From a virus, in IMG/VR virus record IMGVR_UViG_3300009194_000042, positions 1 through 27,781 of that record: a stretch of 27,781 nt of DNA. One strand, written 5' to 3'. How positions within the stretch are numbered: position 1 is the first letter of the stretch; each line of letters starts with the position of its first letter. The notes beneath the pieces were generated by a model. The model was not told the origin of the DNA and made no database searches. It saw nothing but the letters and a program-made list of their open reading frames with translations. A program made the translations under genes and the position numbers. Shown here one piece after another: positions 3,045-16,650 of the stretch.

Positions 3045-3446
3045 ATGCAACCCATCCCAAAGAACGTGGCCGCATGGATTGCTGGCTTCTTTGATGGCGA
3101 AGGCACCATCGGTATCTACTTGCCGAAAGGCGCTAAGACCCCCTGCCATCGCGTCCACCTCTACAACAACCACCTGTCAGCCTTGACGCTTGTCCGCCAG
3201 CACCTCGGCGGTCACCTGAAGAAAGTCTCTGAGGACGGAGGACTCAACTCCTACTGTCTTCAGCTGCGCCTGGACGAACTGCCCCGGTTCGTTGAACACG
3301 TCGTTCCCCACCTGCGAATCAAAGCGGCCAACGGAATGTTGATCCGCCGGTTCCTGGAATGTCGTGAGGAAGGCTGGACCCAGGACACGATCTCCGAGGT
3401 CATCGGAATGTACCAAGCGATCAAGGCTCCGAAAGCTCTGAGGTAA
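3045..3446 (+). CDS. Free-standing LAGLIDADG homing endonuclease
   Basis: A 133-residue protein starting at ATG 3045 with GAGGGAGA just upstream. A single LAGLIDADG motif is seen as IAGFFDGEG at residues 12-20, with E19 in the position of the usual second metal-binding acid. One motif per chain means it should act as a homodimer. It sits alone in the 10+3 nt between primase-helicase and the intron-bearing DNA polymerase gene, so it is a free-standing mobile gene inserted between T7-type genes 4 and 5. In a 60-nt sample its GC (60%) resembles the core genes, suggesting long residence. The target site is unknown; the neighbouring polymerase gene is the natural suspect. It is related to, but clearly diverged from, the protein at 9417-9878. 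Confidence 0.85.
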   Translation: MQPIPKNVAAWIAGFFDGEGTIGIYLPKGAKTPCHRVHLYNNHLSALTLVRQHLGGHLKKVSEDGGLNSYCLQLRLDELPRFVEHVVPHLRIKAANGMLIRRFLECREEGWTQDTISEVIGMYQAIKAPKALR

Positions 3447-3449
3447 GTA

Positions 3450-5159
3450 ATGGAAGTTCTCGTCGCTGACGTCGAAGGTAATGACCTGTTACCTGGACTC
3501 ACCACGATGTGGTGCCTGGGGATTGGCAACCCCAAGACCGGTGAGGTCGAGATGTATGCCAACCACAAGGACTACAAACCGTTGGCCGAGGGACTAGCCC
3601 GACTGCATAACGCGGATCGTGTGGTCTTTCACAACGGCCTGGGGTACGACTTCGAGGCTATCGAAAAGCTGTATCCCGGCACCCTCCGGTGGAGCCAAAT
3701 CTGGGACACGCTCGTCGTGGGCCGGATGCTCAGGCCAGATATCAAGGACCAGCGACTGGCCAGTTGGGGTCGCATCTTCAAGTTCCCGAAGGGCGACCAC
3801 ACGGACTTCTCTCGCTTCTCGCATGAGATGGCCAAGTATTGCCGTCGTGACGTTGAGATCACGATGAAGCTGTACCGGATGCTTCAGTCGATGCTGAAGA
3901 AAGACCTCAAGAAAGAGGGTATCGACTGGCGTCCGGCCATCCATGTTGAGCATCAGGTGGCCTACGTAATCATCGAGCAGGAGCGTCATGGTTTCCGTCT
4001 CGATGTCGAAGCGGCCCAGGCCCTGGAGGCTGAGCTTCGCGTTGAGAAAGCGGAGATCCTGGACGAGCTTCGAGACATCTTCCCGCCAGTTATGCGGCCT
4101 GAGAAAGGTACGTGGGACTGGTACAACCGCAAGTGGAAAGGTGTTGAGGTAACCACGCCGAAGGTCAACAACGGACCCCGAGGGATCACCAAGGGAGCCT
4201 CCTACTGCAAGGTGAAACTTGAGGAGTTCAACCCCAAGTCCGGCCAGCAGAAGACCTTCCGCCTGACCCACAAGTACGGCTGGCGTCCCGAGAAGCTGAC
4301 CGACAACGGCGCTCCCTGTACCGATGAAGAAGTGCTGTCGGAACTGGACTACCCGGAAGCTCGGGCCATGCTCCGGTACGACCGTATCACCAAGCAGCTC
4401 GGCCAGATTGCCGACGGTAAGAACGGCTGGCTCAAGCTGGAGAAGAACGGATACGTCCACGGTCGGGTTAACCCGGTCGGTGCCCGGACGTTCCGCATGA
4501 CTCACTTCGCGCCGAACATGGCGCAGGTCGACAAGAAAGACAAACGGATGCGGGCTGTCTGGCTCCCGGACCCCGGCCAAAAGCAGGTCGGTGTGGATGC
4601 CAGCGGTCTGGAACTCCGCATGTTGTCCCATTACCTGGCCCGGTGGGACGGCGGCAAGTATGCCCGGATCGTTGTGGACGACGACAAGGCCAACGGCCTG
4701 GACGCTCACAGCCGGAACCGGGACATTGTGGGCCTGTACGAACGGGACTCAGCCAAGACCCTAATGTACGCCTTCATGTATGGCGGTGGTGATCTGAAGC
4801 TGGGCCTGATCATCATTGAAGATGCCCGAGAAGCTGGCAAGGCTAAGCCCAAGGGCGGACAGAGGAAGATCGGTAAGACCGCACGGTCCAAGCTGGAGAA
4901 CGGTATCACCGGTCTGGATCGTCTCGTCAGCCTGTGTAAGAAGCGGACCAAACAGAAGGGTTACCTCAAAGGCCTTGACGGTCGCAAGGTAATCTCAAAT
5001 GCACAACACGCCTCTCTGAACACCCTGCTCCAATCTGCCGGTGCCATCGTCATGAAGTACGCACTGGCCATCTTCCACTACGAACTGTGCGTCGAGCGTG
5101 GCTGGGTTGATCCCGTCATGTATCGAGCCACTGCGTTCAGTTATCTGGCCAATGTCCAT
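3450..5159 (+). CDS. DNA polymerase I family (T7 gp5-like), exon 1
   Basis: This exon encodes residues 1-570 of a 620-residue spliced polymerase (T7 gp5 is 704), starting at ATG 3450 behind GAGGTAA. The 3'-5' exonuclease domain shows Exo I DVEGN (D7, E9), Exo II FHNGLGYDF and Exo III YCRRDVEI. The polymerase domain shows motif A GVDASGLELR with D383 and motif B RDSAKTLMYAFMYGG near residues 432-447. The exon ends with ...SYLANVH, and the reading frame then runs into intron sequence and stops at TAA 5196-5198, so unspliced RNA would give a 582-residue protein without the motif C carboxylates. The region matching the T7 thioredoxin-binding loop (about residues 218-268) appears shortened. It is the replicative polymerase, partnered with the primase-helicase and SSB. 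Confidence 0.95.
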
Positions 5160-5801
5160 GAACTTGCGTGGACACGAGGGGCGACCCTCGTTAAATAAAC
5201 TGGGTTAATTCAGGGGAACCCCTCGATGGGCAACCCTGAGCCAAGACTAGGAGAGTACTGTGGCCAACAGTAAGAAGTTGGTCTTAGTCAGTACAAGTTC
5301 TGGATGTCTCGTCCCTACGTCTCACAAGCTCAATCAGGATGGATATTTCCGTAAGAGGGTTTGGATAGACGGGGTCCTAAAAGCCGTGATGTACCACAGG
5401 TACGTTTACGAGCAGAACCGTGGGCCTATTCCAGAGGGTTACGAGGTTGATCATCTATGTAAGAACAGAGCTTGCTGCAACATAGACCATCTGCAGCTCC
5501 TACCCGCCACCATCCATAGGTCGAAGGACAACTCCGAAAGGTATGCGTCTAGCAAAGAGACGGCCCGGCAGTTCTTCAAGGACCATCCAGACATAACCGG
5601 TACTGAGCTAGGGAAACGCTTTGGAGTTTCCTTCAGTACCGGATGCAAGTGGCGCAAGGAGTTCTCCAAGTAAGGTGCAGAGACTATCCCGAAAGGGAGT
5701 AGGAGCGTGGGGTGAGATTCCCCACGTTTCCGAAAAGCCCAGCCCTCCGAAAGGAGGTGAAGATATAGTCCGACACCACCAGCAATGGTGGAAACAGAAA
5801 G
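5160..5801 (+). ncRNA. Group I self-splicing intron (IA-like) in the DNA polymerase gene
   Basis: The intron is 642 nt. Exon 1 ends in T5159 and the intron ends in G5801, the two bases group I splicing requires. P1 is visible: exon bases 5153-5159 pair with intron 5168-5174 (7 bp), with the obligatory U5159-G5168 wobble at the cleavage site. P2 is CGAGGG/CCCTCG (5175-5190) with a GCGA loop. The 5' core has GGGGAACC (5213-5220) and CAACCCTGAGCCAAG (5231-5245), as in td-type phage introns. P7 is GACTA (5682-5686) with TAGTC (5766-5770) inside the typical AAGATATAGTCC. Local stems: CCC-GAAA-GGG 5688-5697, 5706-5712/5720-5726, 5744-5748/5753-5757 with GAAA loop, and P9 5776-5780/5787-5791. P10 was not resolved. 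An HNH gene fills the loop between the 5' and 3' core halves. Confidence 0.93.
5260..5673 (+). CDS. Intron-encoded HNH homing endonuclease
   Basis: A 137-residue protein starting at GTG 5260 with AGGAGAG about 5 nt upstream. The HNH fold spans about residues 46-92: EVDH (D64, H65), the N74-I-D-H77 segment and H86, with Cys 67, 72 and 73 in between, as in HNH_3-type phage intron endonucleases. The C-terminal part (about 110-137, TGTELGKRFGVSFSTG then K-W-R-K) looks like a helix-turn-helix DNA-binding module, common in such enzymes. It lies wholly inside the group I intron, between the two core halves, and would cut intronless polymerase genes to spread the intron. Sampled lines are 47-53% GC, lower than the polymerase exons, consistent with later arrival. 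Confidence 0.92.
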   Translation: MANSKKLVLVSTSSGCLVPTSHKLNQDGYFRKRVWIDGVLKAVMYHRYVYEQNRGPIPEGYEVDHLCKNRACCNIDHLQLLPATIHRSKDNSERYASSKETARQFFKDHPDITGTELGKRFGVSFSTGCKWRKEFSK

Positions 5802-5954
5802 GATGAGGTCCAGATGACCGCACCACCTGAGATCGCAGAGGAACTGGGACAGATGTTCGCCAAGGCCATCGAGCTGGCTGGCGAAAGATTGAAGCTGAAG
5901 GTTCCCCTGGCCGGGGAAGCACTGATCGGAGAGAACTGGCGCGAAACTCACTAA
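5802..5954 (+). CDS. DNA polymerase (T7 gp5-like), exon 2
   Basis: This exon adds the last 50 residues, beginning DEVQMTAPPEIAEEL and ending GENWRETH before TAA 5952-5954. Joined to exon 1 it restores motif C as NVH-DEVQ, the HDE motif that supplies the second catalytic Asp. The end parallels the T7 gp5 terminus (GPNWAICH), which confirms frame and splice point. It has no start codon or ribosome site of its own for this part and is only meaningful after splicing. The stop codon merges with the AAGGAG site of the next gene. Confidence 0.93.
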   Translation, partial: DEVQMTAPPEIAEELGQMFAKAIELAGERLKLKVPLAGEALIGENWRETH

Positions 5955-9416: not shown

Positions 9417-9878
9417 TTGGCTCAGATAGACCAGACTGCTTTGGCATACGCGGCTGGATTTATCGACGGAGAAGGATGCTTCGGGATAGCCAAGAACGGA
9501 AGCGTAAGTATCTCAATCGTCAACTGTTCGATCCCTTCCCTTGAGAGAGTCAGAGAGGCTTTGGGGAGGGGTCGGATCACCTCGCGAAAGCAGAGAGTTA
9601 ACCGTAGCCAGTATCTCTTTCGGGTATATGGCGACGACGCTATCTACTGCATCCAGCTGCTTCTACCTTACCTAATCGAGAAAAAGCCTCAAGCTCTGAC
9701 AATCCTTGAGTATCGCGAGGAAGCTAAGACTTACCGGATTCCAGGTAGGCGGGGAAGGTTCGGCACGAACGTCAAAGAGAAATACAGAGAAATCCTGAAG
9801 GAGCAGAAAAGAAGTGAGTATCACTCCCTCGACTCGCGCCCAGATTGTAACGAGGCGCACCTACAACAGAGTGCTTGA
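9417..9878 (+). CDS. Free-standing LAGLIDADG homing endonuclease overlapping the RNR gene
   Basis: A 153-residue protein starting at TTG 9417, 6 nt after AAGGAGG (9404-9410); the redoxin gene stops at 9415. A single motif AAGFIDGEG at residues 12-20 (E19 in the catalytic-acid position) marks a homodimeric LAGLIDADG enzyme. The body has the usual alternation of short strands and helices plus a basic C-terminal stretch (about 114-135). Its last 65 nt overlap the N-terminal coding region of the RNR gene in another frame, so the C-terminal tail (about 133-153) is likely run-on sequence. Three sampled 60-nt lines give 45-52% GC, lower than the flanking genes, suggesting recent insertion. It is a distant relative of the protein at 3045-3446. 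Confidence 0.87.
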   Translation: MAQIDQTALAYAAGFIDGEGCFGIAKNGSVSISIVNCSIPSLERVREALGRGRITSRKQRVNRSQYLFRVYGDDAIYCIQLLLPYLIEKKPQALTILEYREEAKTYRIPGRRGRFGTNVKEKYREILKEQKRSEYHSLDSRPDCNEAHLQQSA

Positions 9879-14252: not shown

Positions 14253-15098
14253 GTGGATCAACCGAATGGCGAAGCTCAAGACCAGAATCAAGGTAACAAC
14301 GTGCCGGAGCCTGGTTCTGATGAATACAACCAGCAGATGGCCGAGAAGTACCGCCAAGGCCACGGTGAAGTAGATCAGGATCAGGAGACTCCACCGGTCC
14401 CTGAGATGCCCGAAGGCGGGTACGAAAAGTTCTACAACAAGGAAACCGGTGAGTACAACTGGCAGGCTCACGCCCAGGAACTTCAGTATCGACTGGACCA
14501 GAACTCAGGTAAATCCAGCGACGATAAAGGCCAGGAAGGCGACGACAAGGACGAAGGCACCAAGGAAGGTGACGCCAAGGACGGCGACATTTACCAGCAG
14601 ACAGGCCTCGATCCGCAGGAGCTGGAGCAGCAGATTATCCAGAATGGGTCTCTGGATGCTGACGCCAAGGAAGCTCTCACCAACGCCGGTATCCCTGAAC
14701 AACTGATTGATATGTTTGTGTCCAGCTATGCGAAGGGAATGCAGGCTGAACAGCAGGCAATCATTCAGGAAGCCGGGGGGCAGGAATCATGGAATCAGAT
14801 TTCTGCTTTCGTCGAGACTCTCCCGGAGGCTGAACAGAACGCCTTCTACGACAGTCTCGGCACCCAGTACAGGAAGTACGCACTCGCGGATATCCAGGAA
14901 CGGATGAAACAGTCCGCTCCGTTGGGCCGCGAGAAGCCGATGATCAATGGCGATTCCACATCGTCCGGCGTTGCGGGTTACCGCAGCAAGGCCGAGATGA
15001 AGAAGGACATGGCCGATCCTCGGTATCAGTCCGATCCGACATTCCGTCAGCAGGTCATGAATCGTATGGCCGCTGCAACCTGGGATTTGGATCGTTAG
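14253..15098 (+). CDS. Capsid assembly scaffolding protein, T7 gp9-like
   Basis: A 281-residue protein (T7 gp9 is 307) starting at GTG 14253, immediately after the portal stop, with CAAGGAGC about 11 nt upstream. It is acidic, Gln/Asp/Glu/Lys-rich and low in complexity in its first half (repeated GDDKDEG/EGDAKDGD-like stretches near 90-115), with helical segments around 125-180 and a C-terminal basic helix (KAEMKKDMADPRY and onward), the pattern of phage scaffolds whose C-terminus binds capsid protein. Its place between portal and capsid genes settles the call. It guides procapsid assembly and is absent from the mature virion. Confidence 0.88.
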   Translation: MDQPNGEAQDQNQGNNVPEPGSDEYNQQMAEKYRQGHGEVDQDQETPPVPEMPEGGYEKFYNKETGEYNWQAHAQELQYRLDQNSGKSSDDKGQEGDDKDEGTKEGDAKDGDIYQQTGLDPQELEQQIIQNGSLDADAKEALTNAGIPEQLIDMFVSSYAKGMQAEQQAIIQEAGGQESWNQISAFVETLPEAEQNAFYDSLGTQYRKYALADIQERMKQSAPLGREKPMINGDSTSSGVAGYRSKAEMKKDMADPRYQSDPTFRQQVMNRMAAATWDLDR

Positions 15099-15261: not shown

Positions 15262-15320
15262 ACCCGCCAAGCCTCTGCCGTGTTTATCCAGCGGGCTCAT
15301 GCTCAAATCGTGCGGGTTTT
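15262..15320 (+). other. Second ACCC/GGGT long-loop hairpin
   Basis: ACCCGC (15262-15267) pairs with GCGGGT (15312-15317), followed by TTT. The loop is 44 nt, as in the structure at 15168-15232, and the 5' arms are similar over 16 nt (ACCCRCCAWGCCTCTG), so the two look like diverged copies about 94 nt apart. Confidence 0.4.
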
Positions 15321-15654: not shown

Positions 15655-16650
15655 ATGGCTATTGGAGCTGAAAACTCTAACCCGATCCGTTTTGGTCAGG
15701 GTCAAACTTCCAACCCGCGTGAACTCTTTCTCGACGTCTTTGGCGGCGAGGTAATCACCGCGTTTGATCTGGCCACTATCACCCTGGACAAGCACAACGT
15801 GAAGACCGTGGGTGGCGGTCAGCGCAGCTGGCGCTTCCCGAAAACCTGGAAGGCGCAGGCCGGTTACCATCAGCCGGGAACTGAACTGCTTGGTGAAGAT
15901 ATCGACACTGGTGAGATCACCGTGACTGTCGACGACATTCTGGTATCTCATACCGCGCTGTCTGATATCGACCAGATGCTGAGCCACTTCGACGTGCGCT
16001 CCGAGTTCTCCAAGCAGATGGGTCTGGCCCTCGCTCGGGTGTTCGATAAGAACGTCTTCCGGCAGCTCATTCTGACTGCCCGTGTGGCCGCTGATGGTCC
16101 GTTCCCTGGCGGTAACATCGTTACCGACGCTGCCCTGGCACCGGACGGCACCACTGGTGTTGTTGACGGTAAGGCCTGGATCGACGCGATCCGCGCAGCC
16201 AACAAGCAGCTGTTCGAGAAGGATGTGCCGGAAGAACAGGAACGGTACATGGCTGTCGACTACGACACCTTCGAGGCGATCAAGTATGCCACTGACGCCA
16301 ACGGCAACTATCTGGTGCTGAACCGTGACTTCGGTCACTCCGGTGCCGGTGGTTTCGAGAACCGCGCCGAGGTGATCCGCATCGACGGTGTGAACATCTA
16401 CAAGACCCGGAACAAGCCGAACACCGATGAGTCTGCGGACACTGGCGTGTACTCCAAGTACCGCGCCAACTACGCAAACACTCTGGGTGTTCTGTGGACT
16501 CGGGACGCGATGGCCACCGTTAAGGTGCAGGATATCGCCTTCGAGACTGAACGTGACACCCGTCGTCTGGAAGACTTCATGGTCGCCAAGATGCTGGTAG
16601 GTCACGGCGCTATGCGCCCGGAATGCGCGGTGGAGTTCGCCTCCGCGTAA
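15655..16650 (+). CDS. Major capsid protein, T7 gp10A-like
   Basis: A 331-residue protein (T7 gp10A is 345) starting at ATG 15655 behind AAAGGA. It carries the T7-group capsid blocks: FLDVFGGEVITAF near 24-36, the GYHQPGTELLG segment, a DIDQMLSHFDVRSEFSKQMGLALA region matching the T7 DIEDAMNHYDVRSEY segment, and a C-terminal RANYANTLGVLWTRDAMATVKV beta region. This is the HK97-fold shell protein. The gene has a long structured leader and a strong terminator right after its stop. No slippery site for a gp10B-type frameshift product is apparent at its end. Confidence 0.94.
   Translation: MAIGAENSNPIRFGQGQTSNPRELFLDVFGGEVITAFDLATITLDKHNVKTVGGGQRSWRFPKTWKAQAGYHQPGTELLGEDIDTGEITVTVDDILVSHTALSDIDQMLSHFDVRSEFSKQMGLALARVFDKNVFRQLILTARVAADGPFPGGNIVTDAALAPDGTTGVVDGKAWIDAIRAANKQLFEKDVPEEQERYMAVDYDTFEAIKYATDANGNYLVLNRDFGHSGAGGFENRAEVIRIDGVNIYKTRNKPNTDESADTGVYSKYRANYANTLGVLWTRDAMATVKVQDIAFETERDTRRLEDFMVAKMLVGHGAMRPECAVEFASA

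Follow-up and report, generated by a model that had tools for sequence, protein, structure and literature searches.

The question raised by this locus is what divides the DNA polymerase gene of the window, the whole 27,781-nt stretch of viral DNA that was analysed, and whether the dividing DNA is a mobile intron. The 5' exon (3450-5159, + strand) contains 570 codons of a family A polymerase of the T7 gp5 type (DNA_pol_A 2.7e-19 and a T7 gp5 match) and ends in SYLANVH. The polymerase frame picks up again at 5802 with DEVQMTAPPEIAEELGQ in a 3' exon, likewise matching T7 gp5, of 50 codons and a stop (5802-5954, + strand) that starts with DEVQ. Once joined, the exons matched T7 gp5 (E 1.7e-69), with the residue that opens the 3' exon aligned to T7 D654, the motif C aspartate. 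The insertion therefore lies exactly ahead of the motif C Asp codon as claimed in a preliminary description of this DNA. Both polymerase exons are intact and in frame.

Boundaries, fold and covariation of the intron

Reading of the sequence placed the 5' boundary after GCC AAT GTC CAT, which ends at 5159, and the 3' boundary after the intron terminal G5801, which is followed from 5802 by GAT GAG GTC CAG. The intron thus spans 5160-5801 on the + strand and its length of 642 nt agrees with the gap reported earlier between LANVH and DEVQ, while the range of 5154-5810 given at that time takes in exon bases. The Rfam group I model (RF00028, Intron_gpI) matched 5150-5792 over its full length with 49.9 bits (E 4.6e-10), which is 0.1 bit below the gathering score of 50. 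The covariance search proposed in the preliminary description did find a group I core. The marginal score is no argument against an intron, because even lower scores were obtained for the related K1F and Edwardsiella introns (35.7 and 31.8 bits). At its gathering threshold the model passes over most of the intron relatives and lack of a match at the cut-off was therefore not used as evidence.

Folding of 5140-5815 gave a minimum free energy of -262.8 kcal/mol compared to -211.0 +/- 5.3 for 20 shuffles (z -9.9), none of which was as low. The structure recovered all of the nested core helices, P1, P2, P3, P4, P5, P6a, P7.1, P7.2, P8 and P9, while P7 is a pseudoknot and so outside the reach of this fold. 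An alignment was made of twelve intron cores stripped of their reading frames, which came from K1F, 13a and Bas103, from phages of Edwardsiella, Klebsiella and Aeromonas and from environmental contigs; several members are close to each other and two (L025 and L030) are near-copies. Two-sided compensatory changes were present in P1, P2, P3, P4, P7.1/P7.2 and P9, while P7 was nearly invariant.

P1 pairs 5153-5159 with 5168-5174 (7 bp), with six of the seven pairs kept in all twelve introns, as is the U5159.G5168 pair at the splice site. The covariation of this helix extends to the exon, where four introns have GUC and eight have GUG as the Val codon, with a matching G or C in the guide. The optional P2 (5175-5190), supported by covariation, has 6 bp and a GCGA loop; its pairs were kept, with two-sided changes, in all five introns having this element, and K1F-type introns are without it. 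P3 pairs 5200-5206 with 5736-5742, is present in both fold and alignment and bridges more than 500 bases with 7 bp, of which five positions had two-sided changes. P4 (5210-5215 with 5234-5239) encloses P5 (5220-5222 with 5228-5230) in the region 5210-5239 and is supported by RF00028, the fold and covariation. P7, identified from the covariation alignment, forms a pseudoknot with P3 by pairing G5682-U5687 with A5765-C5770 (GACUAU/AUAGUC), and five of its six pairs were invariant across the twelve introns. P8 (5744-5757) aligned poorly across the set, and in the window it is itself a clean 5-bp hairpin with a GAAA loop in the predicted fold. P9 (5776-5781 with 5786-5791, GCAA loop) kept all six pairs in the twelve introns, with two-sided changes at several.

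The P1 of 7 bp with its U-G pair, the P7, the P9 and the terminal G of the preliminary description were thus all located in the sequence. With a conserved P3-P8 core, the guanosine site in P7, the U.G pair at the 5' splice site and G5801 at the end, together with the RF00028 match, fold and covariation, the insertion in the polymerase gene is confirmed as a group I intron. P7.1 and P7.2 (5688-5726, fold and covariation) are joined by GUA, the hallmark of subgroup IA2 (PMC3428280), to which the intron was assigned. Some records are annotated as though a free-standing HNH gene lay between two separately translated polymerase pieces (Edwardsiella DT115P1 and ECBP2). We give virtually no credence to such an arrangement in the window, as the group I core is complete and covaries, the intervening DNA holds the same fold in twelve introns, and the 3' piece begins with GAT and would have no initiation codon there.

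Endonuclease gene and P10 helix

An HNH homing endonuclease gene of 137 aa with a GTG start (5260-5673, + strand) is located within P6a, and its earlier identification was upheld by matches to HNH_3 (1.6e-15) and phrog_6254 (4.9e-36). The gene is intact, full length compared to its relatives and homologous to the P6a-encoded genes of introns of the PhiI, W31 and K1F type. A structure search found no solved structure matching the protein. Close relatives of this HNH protein, intronic or free-standing, are encoded in 181 phage-collection records.

The Shine-Dalgarno sequence of the endonuclease gene (5249-5254) is predicted by the fold to be paired in P6a with 5663-5667, which is the end of the HNH frame, and the pairing probability of its GGA was 0.98-1.0. 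Burial of this site was considered as a conserved control and rejected: in the part of the intron set that was compared it was strong in the window and Bas103 and absent in Aeromonas PT2. Translation of unspliced RNA would meet an in-frame TAA (5196-5198) 12 codons into the intron, giving a polymerase without the motif C carboxylates as previously claimed. Since this stop lies just before P3, polymerase ribosomes would stay out of the intron core. The corresponding stops in related introns come after 0-25 intron codons.

Pairing of the guide with the 3' exon, P10, is common in group I introns and is not a defining feature. All eleven relatives have 4-6 contiguous P10 pairs, in which UCAUU, immediately 5' of the guide G in the intron, pairs with GAUGA at the start of the 3' exon. 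The window intron, judged from its sequence, is apparently without P10, having the arm CUUGC with one isolated pair beside the guide. A shifted helix was possible by eye, in the window only, between 5162-5165 and 5806-5809 (4 bp), starting four bases into the exon. Absence of P10 might weaken the choice of 3' splice site. An identical intron, with an identical polymerase, was found in a second contig (IMGVR_UViG_3300027365_000078), so that the two contigs may derive from one phage or from very close ones.

The replacement of UCAUU by CUUGC could be taken for a sign of relaxed selection, with an intron in decay that splices poorly in a damaged or defective phage. We regard this as extremely unlikely, given that helices P1, P3, P4, P7 and P9, the two exons and the HNH frame are each intact, that an identical copy exists in the second contig and that an inactive intron would put an essential gene out of action. 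It is also conceivable, as a long shot, that with P10 given up and the endonuclease start held in P6a, 3' splicing and endonuclease translation compete, which would delay the polymerase or the endonuclease.

Occurrence of the intron site in other phages

The VH|DE boundary was common to every related DNA polymerase intron found. The same codon boundary carries an intron in K1F, 13a, Bas103, Aeromonas PT2, Edwardsiella DT115P1, Klebsiella RCIP0053 and several environmental contigs. For ECBP2, a 77-kb Escherichia phage of another group, the site was placed by the 3' boundary only, as it was for two contigs (L023 and L031). Two further contigs, the 90-kb L025 (- strand) and L030, have at this site a reduced form of the intron with no reading frame or endonuclease gene; that of L025 is 255 nt long and scored 94.4 bits in Rfam. 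In four GenBank phages (L003, L004, L005 and L110) the intron is unannotated and the polymerase is given as separate pieces or hypothetical proteins.

In E. coli Pol I, motif C consists of H881-D882-E883. Bonocora and Shub reportedly described in 2004 the group IA2 introns of the T7-like phages PhiI and W31, along with the W31 endonuclease I-TslI. The PhiI and W31 introns are of subgroup IA2, contain an HNH gene in P6a and lie at DNA polymerase site 881 by E. coli numbering (PMC3428280), so the site, class and endonuclease of the window intron are a known combination. The comparison with known phage polymerase introns suggested in the preliminary description thus places the window at the PhiI/W31 site, and the novelty there ascribed to the exact site, core and HNH gene was overstated, as K1F, 13a and Bas103 share the combination as well. 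Introns of this type at the motif C position of T7-like phages have been on record from 2004 onwards. The introns of SPO1, SP82, Bastille and Pf-WMP3 are also group I introns with an HNH gene in a phage polymerase gene, that of Pf-WMP3 being IA2, but are inserted at site 674 in the fingers (PMC3428280) rather than at 881.

PhiI and W31, compared by published description and via K1F and 13a, differ from the window in the lineage of the host polymerase. K1F, 13a and Bas103 resemble the window in the VH|DE site and the core, and their HNH proteins are 55-57% identical to that of the window, whereas their introns (598-601 nt) have no P2 and a P10 of 4-6 bp and their polymerases are only 31% identical. 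Edwardsiella DT115P1 and Klebsiella RCIP0053 share with the window the site, P2, an HNH protein about 54% identical and a similar length (644 and 647 nt), but have P10, a polymerase of another lineage and a C-terminal exon of 110 codons. By sequence comparison, the window polymerase is a divergent host for the motif C intron, which extends this known intron to another phage polymerase lineage.

Mobility of the intron and other elements of the window

The intron of the window is very probably a mobile element of subgroup IA2, like those of PhiI, W31 and K1F, and we infer its splicing from the structure and its homing from the family. At the RNA level, the core would align the exons and excise itself by two guanosine-driven transesterifications, which would restore VHDE and hence the polymerase active site. 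At the DNA level, by analogy, the P6a-encoded HNH enzyme would nick or cut intron-less polymerase genes at motif C in co-infecting phages, and repair after the cut would copy the intron into them. The site is the least changeable exon sequence, so that a target would be available in many phages and the phage would not survive an inexact loss of the intron.

In pairwise blastp with intron-bearing relatives having a long first exon, HNH identity was 48-57% and polymerase identity 29-36%. When the whole gene region was used in a DNA search, the matches fell in the intron and at the very start of the 3' exon, with none across the length of the polymerase; polymerase-plus-intron DNA matched 81 phage-collection records, mostly via the 3' part of the intron. 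Higher identity in the endonuclease than in the polymerase and DNA matches confined to the intron are what horizontal movement predicts, and they are consistent with an intron that has passed between diverged phages, with a possible contribution from unequal rates of change. No near-identical intron-less phage with an empty site was found at the DNA level.

Of 26 HNH proteins, 14 were in an intron at the site and ten, including T3 gene 5.3, were encoded just 3' of a polymerase gene with no intron and an intact HDE; two were unplaced by the script. In a tree of the remaining 24, based on only 134 columns and with few firm branches, intronic and free-standing proteins were interleaved with five changes of state in the best tree, at least two of them forced by well supported branches. 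The clade of Edwardsiella, Klebsiella and NTNC80A proteins (100/99) contained both states. The window protein thus belongs to a family of endonucleases whose genes lie within this intron or stand free immediately 3' of an intact polymerase gene. The intron and its relatives form a small natural data set in which one endonuclease family is intronic or free-standing beside the same target gene. Bonocora and Shub are said to have worked with PhiI and T3 in 2009. Free-standing endonucleases that target intron insertion sites are regarded as a route to mobile introns in a review citing Bonocora and Shub 2009 (PMC3984707), and the interleaved states bear on this already proposed pathway for the origin of mobile introns.

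The preliminary description had further suggested that splicing efficiency could control replication. As a regulator of this kind, the intron would determine through its splicing how much active polymerase is made and thereby when replication takes place. The early stop in unspliced RNA, the missing P10 and the Shine-Dalgarno sequence buried in P6a would suit such a regulator. The polymerase genes of T3, LUZ100, L008 and other related phages are intact at this site, however, the burial is unconserved, and the patchy distribution fits a selfish homing element. The proposal, unsupported beyond its plausibility, is in our judgement very unlikely, and the intron is real and probably active as a mobile element, its splicing and homing being read from structure and family.

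Elsewhere in the window, an abiF RNA (15263-15317, + strand; RF03085, 37.8 bits with a cut-off of 37) was located between a head assembly gene ending at 15098 and the major head protein gene starting at 15655. This RNA is the partner of AbiF, an abortive-infection toxin. No Abi_2 gene was found anywhere in the window contig. A pattern search found the abiF motif in 72 viral contigs, about 30 of them with the closing stem, and six of nine tested reached the Rfam cut-off. Abi_2 was found in none of 28 closing-stem contigs nor in the window, with a positive result for the control (L051). Orphan RNAs of this sort in phages might act as decoys against host AbiF, although the contigs scanned are fragments. 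In two contigs of related phages (L053 at 3377-3436, and L064) an abiF-like motif precedes a closely similar major head protein gene by about 300 bases; the position ahead of the capsid gene is thus shared in the group.

The window also contains two free-standing endonuclease genes of LAGLIDADG-like type, both belonging to the family phrog_5046. The first (3045-3446, 1.3e-11) lies between the primase-helicase and polymerase genes, and the second (9417-9878, 1.1e-18), which also has a weak LAGLIDADG_3 match, lies just ahead of a ribonucleotide reductase-like gene. Another viral contig (L021) has two apparent group I intron cores in a different gene, at about 2370-2590 and 1950-2170.
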